Source of the DNA: Brevinematales bacterium
GTDB taxonomy: Bacteria; Spirochaetota; Brevinematia; DTOW01
Direction of reading: 5' to 3'
DNA length: 64,000 bases
Assembly: GCA_026415355.1 (NCBI GenBank)
Contig: JAOAHF010000012.1
Span: 1 to 64,000, forward strand
Part shown: piece after piece, positions 53,207-60,337 of the stretch
How the letters are laid out: every line of letters starts with the position of its first letter
How positions within the stretch are numbered: the first letter of the stretch is position 1
The notes under the pieces: model-generated
What the model was told of the DNA's origin: nothing
The model's database searches: none
What the model saw: only the letters and a program-made list of their open reading frames with translations
Made by a program: the position numbers and the translations under genes

Positions 53207-54109
53207 ATGGTAGATGTATTAAGTTTAATAGGGAATACACCTATTATCAGGATAGAGCCTTGGATTAGTAGCATATCGAAAAATGTTTTGATCTATGCCA
53301 AGTTAGAGTTTTACAATCCTGGAGGATCCATTAAGGATAGACCAGCTTACTTTATAATAAGAGATCTTGAGACTAAGGGAATTTTGAATAGTAGTAAGAT
53401 ACTTATTGACTCAACTTCAGGGAATACAGGTATAGCCTACGCTATGATATGTAGTATAAAAAAGTATCCTCTAACCCTTGTTGTACCAAGTAACGCTAGT
53501 GAAGAGAGAAAAAAAATACTTAGTTTCCTTGGTGCAAATGTTATCTACTCTGATCCACTTGAAGGTACTGATGGAGCTCAAGAGATAGTTTATGAGATAA
53601 TCAAGAAAAATCCAGACAAATACATTCTACTTGACCAATACAGTAATCCAAATAACTATTTAGCTCATTACAACACTACTGCTCTTGAAATAATATCTCA
53701 AACTAATGGTAAGGTAACACATTTTATTTGCTCTATAGGTACAAGTGGTACATTCGTTGGTACTTCTAAAAGACTTAAAGAATTTAATCCTCTTATAAAG
53801 ACATATACTGTCGAACCTGATTCTGAATACCACGGTGTTGAAGGAGTAAAACATCTTGCTTCATCCAAAATTCCAGCTATATTTGATAGCTCTTTAGTTG
53901 ATGGAAAGTTCTTTATATCTACTGAAGATGCTTACAGAATGGTTAAGGAAATTGCAAAAAGGTTAGGTATTATGGTAGGTCCATCTTCAGGATTAAACTT
54001 ATGCGCTGCTTTCGAGTTAGCAAAAAGAATCGATAGCGGTGTAATTGTTACAGTGTTTCCTGATAGTATAACCAGATACTTTAGTAACCAATCTCTTTGG
54101 AATTTTTAG
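53207..54109 (+). CDS. Cysteine synthase-family PLP enzyme (CysK/CysM/CBS-like)
   Basis: From MVDVLSLIGNTPIIRI this is a 300-residue PLP enzyme that would add sulphide or another thiol donor to O-acetyl- or O-phosphoserine. The PLP lysine is K43 in NPGGSIKDRPAYF. The phosphate-binding STSGNTGIAYA and the GTSGTFVGTSKRLKE loop are intact. A TTG 15 nt upstream is an alternative start. A TTGAAT-18-TAAAAT promoter (TAAAAT at 53181-53186) fits. A JAMM peptidase gene follows 9 nt later, recalling the mycobacterial mec-cysO-cysM locus, where CysM uses a protein-bound thiocarboxylate. No CysO-like gene is here. Confidence 0.87.
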   Translation: MVDVLSLIGNTPIIRIEPWISSISKNVLIYAKLEFYNPGGSIKDRPAYFIIRDLETKGILNSSKILIDSTSGNTGIAYAMICSIKKYPLTLVVPSNASEERKKILSFLGANVIYSDPLEGTDGAQEIVYEIIKKNPDKYILLDQYSNPNNYLAHYNTTALEIISQTNGKVTHFICSIGTSGTFVGTSKRLKEFNPLIKTYTVEPDSEYHGVEGVKHLASSKIPAIFDSSLVDGKFFISTEDAYRMVKEIAKRLGIMVGPSSGLNLCAAFELAKRIDSGVIVTVFPDSITRYFSNQSLWNF

Positions 54110-54118
54110 GGGTGTTTT

Positions 54119-54520
54119 ATGAAGATAAAAAAAGATGTTTACAATCAGATGATAGATTGGATGAAAAAAAATATTCCTTTTGAGGCATGTGGTTTACTTG
54201 TTGGAAATGGAGATACCATTGATGAGTTCATACCTATGAACAATATAGCCAAAAGCGAAACATTCTTTGAGATGGATCCTGTTGAACTTATGAATACGCT
54301 CGATAAAATCGATGAAAAGGGCAAAGACTTTATAGCAATATTCCACTCTCATCCTGTTACTGACCCATATCCTTCAAAAACTGACTTAGACAGAAACGAG
54401 TTAATTGATCATTTAATTTTTGTTATATCTTCTATGAAAGACGGCTCACCAACAGTAAAGGCATACAACATAAAAGATAAAAACGTAAAAGAAATTGGAG
54501 TTACCATATTAGATGAATAA
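54119..54520 (+). CDS. JAMM/MPN+ metallopeptidase (Mec-like)
   Basis: This 133-residue protein is a single JAB1/MPN domain with the full zinc site: E22 in FEACGLLVG, H76 and H78 in FHSHPVTDPYPSKTD, S86 and D89 (HxHx7SxxD). Bacterial members cleave C-terminal extensions from ubiquitin-like sulphur carriers; the Mycobacterium Mec releases cysteine from CysO. An AGGGGTG site lies 4 nt before the ATG. It shares an operon with the cysteine-synthase gene 9 nt upstream, which supports a sulphur-transfer role. The carrier protein gene is not in the window. Confidence 0.88.
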   Translation: MKIKKDVYNQMIDWMKKNIPFEACGLLVGNGDTIDEFIPMNNIAKSETFFEMDPVELMNTLDKIDEKGKDFIAIFHSHPVTDPYPSKTDLDRNELIDHLIFVISSMKDGSPTVKAYNIKDKNVKEIGVTILDE

Positions 54521-54775
54521 CTAGCAGAAGCTTTATGAATACAACAAAATATTTCCAAAACTTCACTCAGAAATTTCAAATATAGTTAAGGTTCCGACTT
54601 TCAAATACTAATCTTAAAAAGACTTAACCTACTATTCGTACTTTCGTTTTAAACTTCTCTTTGTAGCTAAGCAATAAAGTATACACTAACCTCAATGTTT
54701 AGACATTTTAAAAGCTAATACCCTCAAGAACAAATGCCCCCAAATAAGTAGGGGGGGGATTACCCCCTTGTCTTA
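54521..54775. terminator. Bidirectional hairpin region between convergent genes
   Basis: An eight-G run (54751-54758) can pair with CCCCC at 54763-54767 over a 4-nt loop, or with CCCCC at 54737-54741 over a 9-nt loop, so the two stems exclude each other. It is the only well-spaced terminator-like structure at a convergent junction here. The rest of the gap holds no gene. Confidence 0.5.
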
Positions 54776-56731
54776 TTATAATTCTTCTAACTTTTCAACT
54801 GTTTTCTTAGGTGATATATCTGCTTTACCCTTAACCTTCGGTTCTTCTTGTTTTGATACATCAGACACTTTCTTATAAGCCATTTCTGAAACACTTTCTT
54901 TATCCTCAGGTTGTGCAAAAGATTGATCTATATCAGTTCTCACAGTTGATCTCCTTCTACTATATTGAGCAAACGCAACATCAGTAAATCCTTTCGACAA
55001 CTGGAATAGGAACTCATTGATAACTTCAGCCATCTGTCTTAGTATAAATTGTTTCCTCTTTATTGTAGTTATATCTAATTCTAAAACTAGACCTGGTTGT
55101 ATATGGTGTGGATTTAACGAGTAAGCAAACTCATTAAACCTTTCAAGGACAAAATTAATTCTTTCTTCGAGTATCACTCTTTCTAGTGGTTTTTCTTCTC
55201 CATGCATTTTCTTTAATAGATCTTGTATGAACCTTATCCTTCTAAATAAGTTATCAGTTTCCGGTATGTAGTGAGGATTACTTTCTTCAACAACAGTATC
55301 ATCTGGTGATAGAAAACCTAGTTCTTGCCACTTTATTTCATCTCCACCATTCTCTGCATTTGCTTCAAAGTACTCTTTTGCCCAATCTCTTGGCATATAC
55401 CTCAAAACCATATCATCAAAATCTTTTATGTTAAATCTTTTTTTGTTTTTAAGGTAGTACTGATAAGTTAACTGCCATAATCTTCTTACTTCTCTCTCAA
55501 ATGCTTCAAAGTGTTTGTCATATTCTTCCCTAAGTTTGATTAATTGATTTTGATCATAGTATGCTATCTTTATTCTATAGTTTTCGTGCGGTAACTTAGT
55601 AGGATCAGATTCTTCATACTCTTTTATTACACATACTCTGGCATTTTTGAAGTTATTTATGTACTGATACCCTAATTTACCTGTATCAAGTATTGAAGTT
55701 AAAACATTAACAGCAGAGTTATATCCTCTATTTCTTATATTTTCTATATCAAATATTTTCTTTATGACTTCTCTTATATTCAAAGGATCATACTCATCAG
55801 GTGGGATTTCTGCTCTTAGTCCCTCTATTTTATCGATAAATTTCTTTGCTAAAATAGTATACCTCGTCGAGTTTTCATCTTCCTTTTCATCGCTAGTGAA
55901 GTTTTCTATCTGTCTTATCTTCTCAAATATTATTTCCGTTTTATCTAGTTCTGCTTTACCTTGATCTATCAGTTCTTCATTTATTCTTTCAATCTCCTTA
56001 TCTATAAGTTCAATGATTCTATGCTGTATAGCTTCTTTTATTATCAAAGACAGTGGTACTTGATAGTGGTATATTGGGCTTATTAGCTCATTCTCAAGGA
56101 TATTTATAGAGAGCTTTACATCATAGACATAGGTAGGATTGTAGGGATTATTCCTGAAGGTACCTTTCATTATCGCATAAGCATTTTGTCCTCTTACTAG
56201 TGCTCCAACATCAGTTTTTTGCCTTAATAGAGCATTAGTTCTTTCTTCTACCTCTGTAACTTCTCTTTGAATATGACCTTGTAAGTGACCATACATATTA
56301 ACTATCGACTTTTCAATTTCTCCTGTGTGAAACTTATCAGGACCTGCTATCTTATCAAGTAGCTCAACTAACTCCCTTGGTGTGTATCTTGCCATCTGTC
56401 TGTTTTCTTCTCTGTCTACAAATGTTCTCACCTTCTTCAAAAATTCATCCTCAACAGTCTTTAAGTACCTATTCATCATGTTTTGATATGTGATGTTAAT
56501 ATAGTTATAGATTTTGTCCCTTATACTTCCCATTATGTCAAGCTTATCAGACATTTCAGGAGGGAGTTTAGTTATTATTTTATTCATTAATTCATTAGTC
56601 AAATCATTAACAAACTTCTTATCTTCAGCTTCTTTTGACCTCCCTTCCTGAACTAAACTTTCGTGGCTACCAACCGCACTAGGTATATTGGGGTCAAAAA
56701 TATTAGGCCCCTTTGGAAATTGATCTAACAT
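54776..56731 (-). CDS. Probable cytoplasmic filament protein (CfpA-like)
   Basis: This 651-residue (about 77 kDa) soluble, highly charged, helix-rich protein has no signal peptide or membrane segment. It begins LDQFPKGPNIFDP and NIPSAVGSHESLVQEGRS, and has coiled-coil-prone stretches (about 60-150 and 240-300) and a Lys/Glu-rich tail (600-651) likely to be disordered. Size, composition and the opening resemble spirochaete CfpA, which builds ribbon-like filaments under the cell membrane of treponemes. This is from memory and not aligned. A GAGGAGG site precedes the start. If right, it is the best taxon marker in the window. Confidence 0.55.
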   Translation of the reverse strand: MLDQFPKGPNIFDPNIPSAVGSHESLVQEGRSKEAEDKKFVNDLTNELMNKIITKLPPEMSDKLDIMGSIRDKIYNYINITYQNMMNRYLKTVEDEFLKKVRTFVDREENRQMARYTPRELVELLDKIAGPDKFHTGEIEKSIVNMYGHLQGHIQREVTEVEERTNALLRQKTDVGALVRGQNAYAIMKGTFRNNPYNPTYVYDVKLSINILENELISPIYHYQVPLSLIIKEAIQHRIIELIDKEIERINEELIDQGKAELDKTEIIFEKIRQIENFTSDEKEDENSTRYTILAKKFIDKIEGLRAEIPPDEYDPLNIREVIKKIFDIENIRNRGYNSAVNVLTSILDTGKLGYQYINNFKNARVCVIKEYEESDPTKLPHENYRIKIAYYDQNQLIKLREEYDKHFEAFEREVRRLWQLTYQYYLKNKKRFNIKDFDDMVLRYMPRDWAKEYFEANAENGGDEIKWQELGFLSPDDTVVEESNPHYIPETDNLFRRIRFIQDLLKKMHGEEKPLERVILEERINFVLERFNEFAYSLNPHHIQPGLVLELDITTIKRKQFILRQMAEVINEFLFQLSKGFTDVAFAQYSRRRSTVRTDIDQSFAQPEDKESVSEMAYKKVSDVSKQEEPKVKGKADISPKKTVEKLEEL

Positions 56732-57415: not shown

Positions 57416-60337
57416 TCAGAACTCATATCCTATTTGGAAGTAAGTTTTCCAATCCTGAGTATCAAGCAATTTATGTCCATCAAAAGGTGAAGCAAAATCA
57501 AATCTTAACTTAAATCCTGTCCCTAACAATACCCCTATTCCTACACCTACACCAACCTTCAAATCTTTTAGCTTAAAGAGTCCATCAGTTGTGTCAAAAT
57601 ATGTAATCTGCCATTTTGTAGGATCATCTCCTATAATTCCAACATCAACAAAAGCACTAGCAAAAACAGGTGGAAACGAGAAACCAAAAGGTCCTAATAA
57701 CGCTCTTATAAGAGCAATTCTAATTTCAAGATTGGATAAAAGAAAAGTTGTACCACTAAACTCTCCAAACCTATATCCTCTTATCGTCCCAATACCACCC
57801 AAGAAAAACCTAATATCCTTAGCATCATCTCCAAACTTACTACCTCCAACAAATCTAAACGCTAAAGTATCTATAAGTGTTATCATTAAATACCCTCTAA
57901 AATCTCCTATCACAGAAAATAAACTCTTATCACCACTAAAAAACGCAGGATAATATGAAAACTTCATCTGAGTTCTTATACCATTAATAGGTCCTACCAC
58001 AGTCCATAGAGTAGAATCATATGAATAACTCAAAGAAATACTATTCAAAGAGTATAACTTTTTCGATAGGTACAACCTATTAATATAGTCAAAAATAGGA
58101 ACATCATAATATTCAGTTCTTTCAGCATACAAATCTATCCTCGAAAATGTAGAAAATGGGTAAGAAACAAATCCTGAAAATCCTGCCTTTGAATAATAAT
58201 TGTTTTCTATTTCATAAAACATCGAAGGTAAATAGAAAAAGTTCATCAATGAAAAAAGGTAGTCTCTTATATTATATGCTTGAAGACCAAAATCAAAATA
58301 GTATTTATAATTAACATAAGACAGTACAAAGTTAAGTTCAGAGATACTAAAACTATCTATACCACTTACATATGCATTGTTAAATAGAATAGAAAGCCTT
58401 TGATCTCCAAGAATATCACTAAACCCTGCACCAAAAAGTAAAATAAACCCTAAATCCGAACTTAAAGTAAAGGCACCCGTAAGATAATCAACTGTAGGTA
58501 TCATCAAATATTTACTCACTTCTCTTGGATTTATACCAGAAATTCTAGAATACTCAAAGTTAAAGTTACTGATATCAGATACTAAAATCAATGTACTATT
58601 TGACAGTTCATCACTATATAGTTTAGATGGATCAAAATCCTTTTCATACAAGTTATAAGTAAAGTTATTTACTGATGAAAATATGACTTTCGTTGACGTG
58701 ATATCCAATTTCGGCGAGAAAGCACCTGTAATAATTTTTGAAAATCTCCTTATTATATTACTCTCAAAACTATAAACGAATATATTCCTGACTCCATCGA
58801 TGGTTGATACAAAAAATAAATATTTACCATCACATGATAAAAATGGATTCTGCTCTTCTCCACCTATATCGATAAACTTCTCTATACTACCATCAGATAA
58901 CCGCAAACGGTATATATCTGTATCTTGAGAGAAGAGACTAGGTTTGTTTCTAGTAGAGATAAAATACACGTAATCCTTATCTGGGGATATCCTTGGCTCA
59001 GAATCATAGAATATATCATCTGTAAGTCTCTTTAGATCTTTAGTAACAAGGTTAAAAATGTATATATCCTCTCTTAGCCCATCAAAACCAGAAAATACAA
59101 CAACTTCTCCATCAAGAGAAATATCCGGAGATGAAATTATCCTAATATCTCCAAATGGTATCTGATAAGAATAATCGCTCGATATATTATATATATTCAA
59201 GACATCCCTACCTCCAGATCTAGAAACAAATACTATAATTCCATTAGTTGAAGAAGATATGTTGTTCCTAGTTATATGAAACTCCAGATAATTCTCGTCA
59301 AATCCCCCTATAACAAGTGTCCTAACAACTTTTTTCTGATTTATATCAAAAAGGACTATTTTAGGATATATATCTTTGTATGTCAAAAACGCAACTAGAT
59401 TAGATGAGATAAAAGTTGGTATAAACTTACTATAAGATTGGGAACCATAAGGTTCACCAGTTATTGATTTAGCAAAGCCATCAGCTTCTTCGTAAGAAGA
59501 CATCATAGAGAGATATTTCTTCCTAGTTTCATATACAAAAGACTTTTCGATATCTTCAAGAGCCATACCTACTTCTGACTTGAAAGGATCCTTATCACCC
59601 TTGAGATAAGACTTGAAAATCTTATATATGGTTGGCTTACCAAATTTATCACCGATATATTTCAGTATAGCTTGTCCTTGTTTATATATGAGTATATACT
59701 CTCCAGGCATTAGTTTATTAATATCCGATAACCTAGATATGGGTACTATTGAATTATTTACTGCAACATCTCTTATAATTTCTTCAGTTGAAAAATCCCA
59801 CTCAACAGAGTAATATTCTGCCATTCCCTCAACAAACCACAAAGGTATATTAACATCCACACTTCTTAAAATCTTTCTGAACTGCGGGGACTTAAAAGAA
59901 TCAAACTGATATACATGAACCATTTCATGCTGCAAAACTCTTCTGAAAAATCCCCAATTACCATTTATTGGCATGACAAGTCTATTTTTAAGTCCTTCAG
60001 TAAACCCACCAGTACCCTCACCTACAAAACCATCTATTACATTATTTGCCTGAAAATCAATTTGGTTAGGAAACAAGATAACAGGAAATACTTCGTATAA
60101 CTCTCTTTGAGTAATCACTCTCAACTCATCATCAGCATCTTTTAATGCCCTAATTACGATTTTTGAAATGTTTGTCTGCTTTTCATCTATAAATACCCTA
60201 TAATTACCTATGTCATATATATACCAATCATGCGTATCATAAGTAACTTTATTCTTACCAAAACCCCATCCGTTATAACCACTTAAAAATATATGATAAA
60301 AAGCAAAAAACCAAATTAGAAGCCTTACCAACTTCAT
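57416..60337 (-). CDS. Fusion of MA-type zinc peptidase domain, TolB-like propeller and Omp85-type barrel
   Basis: This 973-residue exported protein has a signal peptide (1-20). Next comes a zinc-peptidase-like domain: HEMVH at 137-141 (HExxH) and a gluzincin-style WFVEGMAEY with E170. A beta-propeller (about 320-560) follows, with repeated DG-containing strands such as SPDKDYVYFIST and SCDGKYLFFVST. The C-terminal barrel (about 600-973) has GTIRGYRFGEF, matching the conserved R-G-Y/F lid motif of Omp85 proteins, and ends in Phe. The order suggests a secreted or surface proteolytic module anchored by its own pore. It could serve TamA's role for the TamB-like protein. The mRNA is probably leaderless. 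Confidence 0.75.
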   Translation of the reverse strand: MKLVRLLIWFFAFYHIFLSGYNGWGFGKNKVTYDTHDWYIYDIGNYRVFIDEKQTNISKIVIRALKDADDELRVITQRELYEVFPVILFPNQIDFQANNVIDGFVGEGTGGFTEGLKNRLVMPINGNWGFFRRVLQHEMVHVYQFDSFKSPQFRKILRSVDVNIPLWFVEGMAEYYSVEWDFSTEEIIRDVAVNNSIVPISRLSDINKLMPGEYILIYKQGQAILKYIGDKFGKPTIYKIFKSYLKGDKDPFKSEVGMALEDIEKSFVYETRKKYLSMMSSYEEADGFAKSITGEPYGSQSYSKFIPTFISSNLVAFLTYKDIYPKIVLFDINQKKVVRTLVIGGFDENYLEFHITRNNISSSTNGIIVFVSRSGGRDVLNIYNISSDYSYQIPFGDIRIISSPDISLDGEVVVFSGFDGLREDIYIFNLVTKDLKRLTDDIFYDSEPRISPDKDYVYFISTRNKPSLFSQDTDIYRLRLSDGSIEKFIDIGGEEQNPFLSCDGKYLFFVSTIDGVRNIFVYSFESNIIRRFSKIITGAFSPKLDITSTKVIFSSVNNFTYNLYEKDFDPSKLYSDELSNSTLILVSDISNFNFEYSRISGINPREVSKYLMIPTVDYLTGAFTLSSDLGFILLFGAGFSDILGDQRLSILFNNAYVSGIDSFSISELNFVLSYVNYKYYFDFGLQAYNIRDYLFSLMNFFYLPSMFYEIENNYYSKAGFSGFVSYPFSTFSRIDLYAERTEYYDVPIFDYINRLYLSKKLYSLNSISLSYSYDSTLWTVVGPINGIRTQMKFSYYPAFFSGDKSLFSVIGDFRGYLMITLIDTLAFRFVGGSKFGDDAKDIRFFLGGIGTIRGYRFGEFSGTTFLLSNLEIRIALIRALLGPFGFSFPPVFASAFVDVGIIGDDPTKWQITYFDTTDGLFKLKDLKVGVGVGIGVLLGTGFKLRFDFASPFDGHKLLDTQDWKTYFQIGYEF

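Follow-up and report, generated by a model that had tools for sequence, protein, structure and literature searches.

The locus examined here raises a question about a missing partner. In a Brevinematales bacterium, a CysM-type cysteine synthase and a JAMM metallopeptidase are encoded side by side, with no CysO gene at the locus. In Mycobacterium tuberculosis (Mtb), CysO is turned into a thiocarboxylate by MoeZR and added to O-phosphoserine by CysM, after which Mec releases cysteine (PMC3227635); the CysM substrates are stated again in PMC11361707. Does the pair serve such a pathway, and where would its carrier be encoded? We analysed a window of 64,000 nucleotides (contig JAOAHF010000012.1, positions 1 to 64,000) together with the genome to which it belongs, a 1.76 Mb draft that is 96.8% complete. 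We conclude that the two genes are likely to be the CysM and Mec parts of the known CysO-type cysteine pathway, with the carrier and the E1 encoded elsewhere in the genome.

The first gene (53207–54109, plus strand; ATG at 53207, stop codon at 54107–54109) encodes a PLP enzyme of 300 residues. It matches Pfam PALP with 215 bits, and its best NCBIfam model is TIGR01138 cysM at 311.7 bits, under the model's cut-off of 394. The second gene (54119–54520, plus strand) encodes a JAMM/Prok-JAB metallopeptidase of 133 residues (Prok-JAB 64.6 bits, cut-off 25). Both active sites are complete, as an earlier note on this DNA had described them. The PLP enzyme has the NPGGSIKD motif with its lysine at K43, TSGNTG from residue 70 and PSSG, and the JAMM motif E...HSHx7SxxD is intact, with E22 followed by H76-S-H78, seven residues, S86, two residues and D89. 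The same note had placed the genes 9 nt apart, and nine bases are indeed counted between the CysM stop and the JAMM start. Read directly, the stop codon and the gap (TAGGGGTGTTTT) occupy 54107–54118 on the plus strand; within the gap is a purine-rich stretch that may be the ribosome-binding site of the JAMM gene. This arrangement suggests that the genes are co-transcribed as an operon. The PLP enzyme is predicted to be a CysO-dependent cysteine synthase and the JAMM a Mec-like release peptidase, possibly one that also trims carrier tails. Just downstream lies the gene for the cytoplasmic filament protein CfpA (789 bits), a protein that points to a spirochaete. Between JAMM and cfpA, which are convergent, is a G-rich/C-rich inverted repeat (54735–54785) that may be a terminator for both. 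Further along, the minus strand (57416–60337) encodes a 973-residue protein that unusually combines a Peptidase_MA-like match with a TolB-like propeller and an Omp85-like match at the C terminus.

When the genome was searched for the ThiS family, two ThiS/MoaD-family genes were found, one on contig C8 and one on contig C7, and none on the window's contig. The statement that there is no CysO gene therefore stands for the locus and fails for the genome, as the C8 gene (C8:14060–14350, minus strand) encodes a CysO-like carrier of 97 residues. This is the dispersed, ThiS/MoaD-like carrier that had been predicted, a small protein with Gly-Gly, with or without a tail: it ends in AIAGG-NLSN, four residues past Gly-Gly. 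The AGG is invariant. The best PDB sequence matches of the C8 protein are two CysO proteins, that of Amycolatopsis (4n6e_B, E=1.1e-11), where the match reaches Gly-Gly, and that of Mtb (3dwg_C, E=1.9e-11), where it covers all 93 residues up to Gly-Gly. The top Foldseek match of its AlphaFold model (pLDDT 88.8) among PDB chains is again 3dwg_C, the Mtb CysO chain from the CysM–CysO complex. Among the ORFs fetched, a CysO profile made from Acidobacteriota and Omnitrophota only recovers the C8 carrier at E=1.8e-23 and does not list the C7 ThiS. The C7 protein was rejected as the carrier of the pair; its gene adjoins a thiG-like gene and it reaches the thiS cut-off, which makes it the carrier for thiamine and a weaker candidate. 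A MoeB/ThiF-type activator, also foreseen in the note, is present as the single full E1 of the genome (C3:107633–108436, minus strand; ThiF 273 bits); it is MoeB-like, and no rhodanese domain was found in it. Because the genes are dispersed, what ties the pair to carrier and E1 is homology and co-occurrence, not linkage.

A carrier of this family could also serve other ends. The C8 protein passes the cut-off of the MoaD-family subfamily TIGR01687 (55.1 versus 49.5 bits), as might be expected of a MoaD for the molybdenum or tungsten cofactor, but a residue tail follows its Gly-Gly and CysO is the better structural match. In addition, the search for MoaE gave no match in the window's genome, while a control search matched in 11 of 14 genomes. 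This makes a MoaD function very unlikely, and the assignment was rejected. Alternatively, the CysO-like protein and the JAMM might form a conjugation and deconjugation system like SAMP1/HvJAMM1, or the carrier might feed tRNA thiolation in the manner of TtuB. The top-ranking NCBIfam models are SAMP1 (57.8 bits) and desampylase (75.6 bits), and SAMP1 structures rank beside CysO in the fold search. However, both scores are under the cut-offs of 60 and 130 bits, respectively, the best sequence and fold matches of the carrier are to CysO as described above, and three genomes of the genus pair the JAMM gene with that of CysM. We therefore consider such a system improbable. A single carrier may be in dual use.

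The position of the PLP enzyme was analysed in a maximum-likelihood tree of 44 sequences, among them the window CysM, CysO-linked homologues, CysM from Mtb and E. coli, MtCysK1 and the genome's own CysK. The Mtb CysM and CysK1 references are identical to PDB entries, and the E. coli CysM sequence was taken from a PDB alignment. The window enzyme falls in a clade of 13 CysO-linked sequences (support 100/97), on a CysM side that includes Mtb and E. coli CysM and is parted by a 99/98 branch from a CysK side holding MtCysK1 and the genome's own CysK (contig C2). A placement among CysK, which had been named as an outcome that would speak against a CysM role, is thus not what the tree gives. Outside the genus, the nearest relatives in a contig search are Acidobacteriota CysM proteins with 45–52% identity. 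In all ten non-genus members of the clade, from Acidobacteriota and Omnitrophota, the carrier gene adjoins that of the enzyme, either free or fused to E1. Nine Acidobacteriota loci have CysM, JAMM, CysO and E1 side by side, usually in the order CysM-JAMM-CysO-E1; the one Omnitrophota locus has CysM with CysO-E1, and no JAMM was seen there. Two of the Acidobacteriota and the Omnitrophota carry CysO fused in frame to E1-rhodanese (L032:4875-6326, L034:6866-8335 and L035:7413-8849).

Closer to the window, the CysM-JAMM pairing is retained in two congeneric genomes, G002 and G003, with 66–79% identity. Its retention there, and its recurrence in Acidobacteriota operons with CysO and E1 added, indicates that it is not due to chance. 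Of the four genomes of the genus, the window's (G000), G002 and G003 have JAMM, CysO and this CysM; G001, which is 95% complete, has none of them and keeps an E1 match (65% identity, one in-frame TGA). This joint presence and absence in four genomes of one genus is suggestive rather than statistical evidence. The cysO gene lies away from the pair in all three genomes that have it. Convergent to it in two of these is a thioredoxin/TlpA-like gene (L108:934-1485 in G003, L109:986-1492 in G002), but in the window's genome no such neighbour of cysO was seen. The two family members without CysO, G004 and G001, have a distinct enzyme of the CysM side, with GMRNP as its lid motif (L123 and L124).

These data also bear on whether CysM might be an ordinary cysteine synthase using free sulfide with O-acetylserine or O-phosphoserine, while the JAMM and CysO do something else. 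Some CysM homologues, that of E. coli among them, function without a carrier, and the JAMM tree gives no firm placement with CysM-linked JAMMs. The window JAMM has a long branch in that tree. In pairwise comparison its closest matches are E1-linked JAMMs from elsewhere in the phylum, and with PfJAMM1 left out it joins the Acidobacteriota set at no more than 85/87 support. A free-sulfide enzyme is nonetheless unlikely, given the carrier next door in ten of ten non-genus clade members, the presence or absence of the three genes together within the genus, and the failure to find CysE.

Neither the window's genome nor its four family relatives (G000–G004) yielded a CysE, the best matches scoring about 24–26 bits; elsewhere in the class there are often full-length matches near 165 bits. 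Partial CysE-like matches on contigs C14 and C5 (22–24 bits) were rejected, the C14 one looking like a gamma-carbonic-anhydrase-like protein. The earlier note had counted a CysE gene, together with a placement among CysK, against its proposal, and the 96.8%-complete draft yielded none. SerA is present, with an ACT domain, and a class V aminotransferase on contig C19 resembles serine/AGXT enzymes. As the cut-off of the curated SerC model is not reached, this enzyme is only a candidate phosphoserine aminotransferase by sequence. Taken together, the lack of a CysE match, SerA and the C19 enzyme make O-phosphoserine a plausible acceptor, and in the pathway proposed below it would probably be the activated serine for CysM. 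The lid is less informative. The position of Mtb Arg220 is Lys215 in the window enzyme, and also Lys in the aligned clade members, but it is not diagnostic of the acceptor, since E. coli CysM has Arg there like Mtb.

The genome encodes, in addition, the separate CysK on C2 and an O-acetylhomoserine sulfhydrylase of MetY type on C7, so the CysO route may not be the only path to cysteine. CysK-type enzymes occur in several of the G000–G004 genomes of this family (f1) though no CysE was found there; a MetX-type serine acyltransferase may supply their acceptor. The MetY-type enzyme brings up homocysteine as the product, with the carrier supplying an O-acetylhomoserine sulfhydrylase as in HcyS/HcyD. 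Elsewhere in the phylum there are JAMMs with a linked E1 and, at some loci, a ThiS-like gene or TusA as well, which would be in line with this. Here, in contrast, the neighbour of the JAMM is CysM and not MetY, and the carrier is CysO-like rather than ThiS-like, which leaves homocysteine synthesis with quite a low probability. In G004, a TusA-like ORF precedes a divergent JAMM (L024:1219-1881), which suggests a different sulfur-carrier set in that relative.

The residues after Gly-Gly vary among the carriers. Within the genus they are NLSN in the window's genome, Y in G003 and none in G002, and in Acidobacteriota R, AR, NHGR, SYA, WAGERA or GHGDQHHQCAC. Tailed or fused carriers need cutting ahead of activation, and the CysO-E1-rhodanese fusions can yield a free carrier only by cleavage behind Gly-Gly. 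The JAMM is kept in G002, where there is no tail, and this fits a release step on CysO-Cys. We tentatively suggest a dual role, in which the JAMM trims tailed or E1-fused CysO to Gly-Gly and then frees cysteine from CysO-Cys; this is possible rather than probable, and another peptidase could be the trimmer. Literature searches on tailed carriers yielded nothing directly useful on this point.

The pathway we propose draws on the presence of its parts, their homology and phylogeny, their complete motifs and their co-occurrence, and its chemistry is predicted. A tail such as NLSN would be removed behind Gly-Gly; the JAMM is the most economical choice for this step, although its part in it is speculative. 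By analogy with M. tuberculosis, the MoeB/ThiF-type E1 would adenylate the Gly-Gly end of the carrier, and a persulfide donor, which could be the SufS-like enzyme encoded on C8, would make the thiocarboxylate. CysM would then form an aminoacrylate from the activated serine and add the sulfur of the thiocarboxylate. An S-to-N shift would give CysO-Cys, and the JAMM would cleave CysO-Cys to free cysteine, again as in Mtb.

These results point to a likely CysO-dependent route to cysteine in a spirochaete-like lineage where no CysE was found, and indicate that the genes of such a pathway can be dispersed with CysM and JAMM still side by side. Natural variation of the tail (NLSN, Y, none), like the fusion of CysO to E1, provides a ready set for asking whether Mec-type JAMMs also mature the carrier. 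For the reading of genomes, when such a pair seems to lack a neighbour, the rest of the genome should be searched before a new carrier is proposed.

Tailed carriers processed by JAMM peptidases are known from QbsE/QbsD and HcyS/HcyD, which feed thioquinolobactin and homocysteine synthesis. The system described here shares with them a carrier with residues past Gly-Gly and a JAMM peptidase, but those systems are not defined by a partner of CysM type. The closer likeness is to the MoeZ-CysO-CysM-Mec pathway of Mtb: a CysM-type enzyme, a CysO-like carrier that matches Mtb CysO over its full length, an E1-type activator and a JAMM peptidase, here a putative counterpart of Mec, are all present. Unlike in Mtb, the carrier has a four-residue tail, the E1 is without a rhodanese domain and both are unlinked to the CysM-JAMM pair; the CysM sequences are distant, with Arg220 replaced by Lys. 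The pathway is already known and was described bioinformatically in 2006, when Iyer et al. (PMC1779556, Table 1, row 4c) listed operons of ThiS/MoaD, E1-rhodanese, JAB and cysteine synthase, including one Acidobacteria genome. The same four components are found here, and the nearest relatives of the window CysM outside the genus sit in loci of that type. In contrast to those operons, only CysM and JAMM are still adjacent in this genome, and the lineage is a relative of the spirochaetes.
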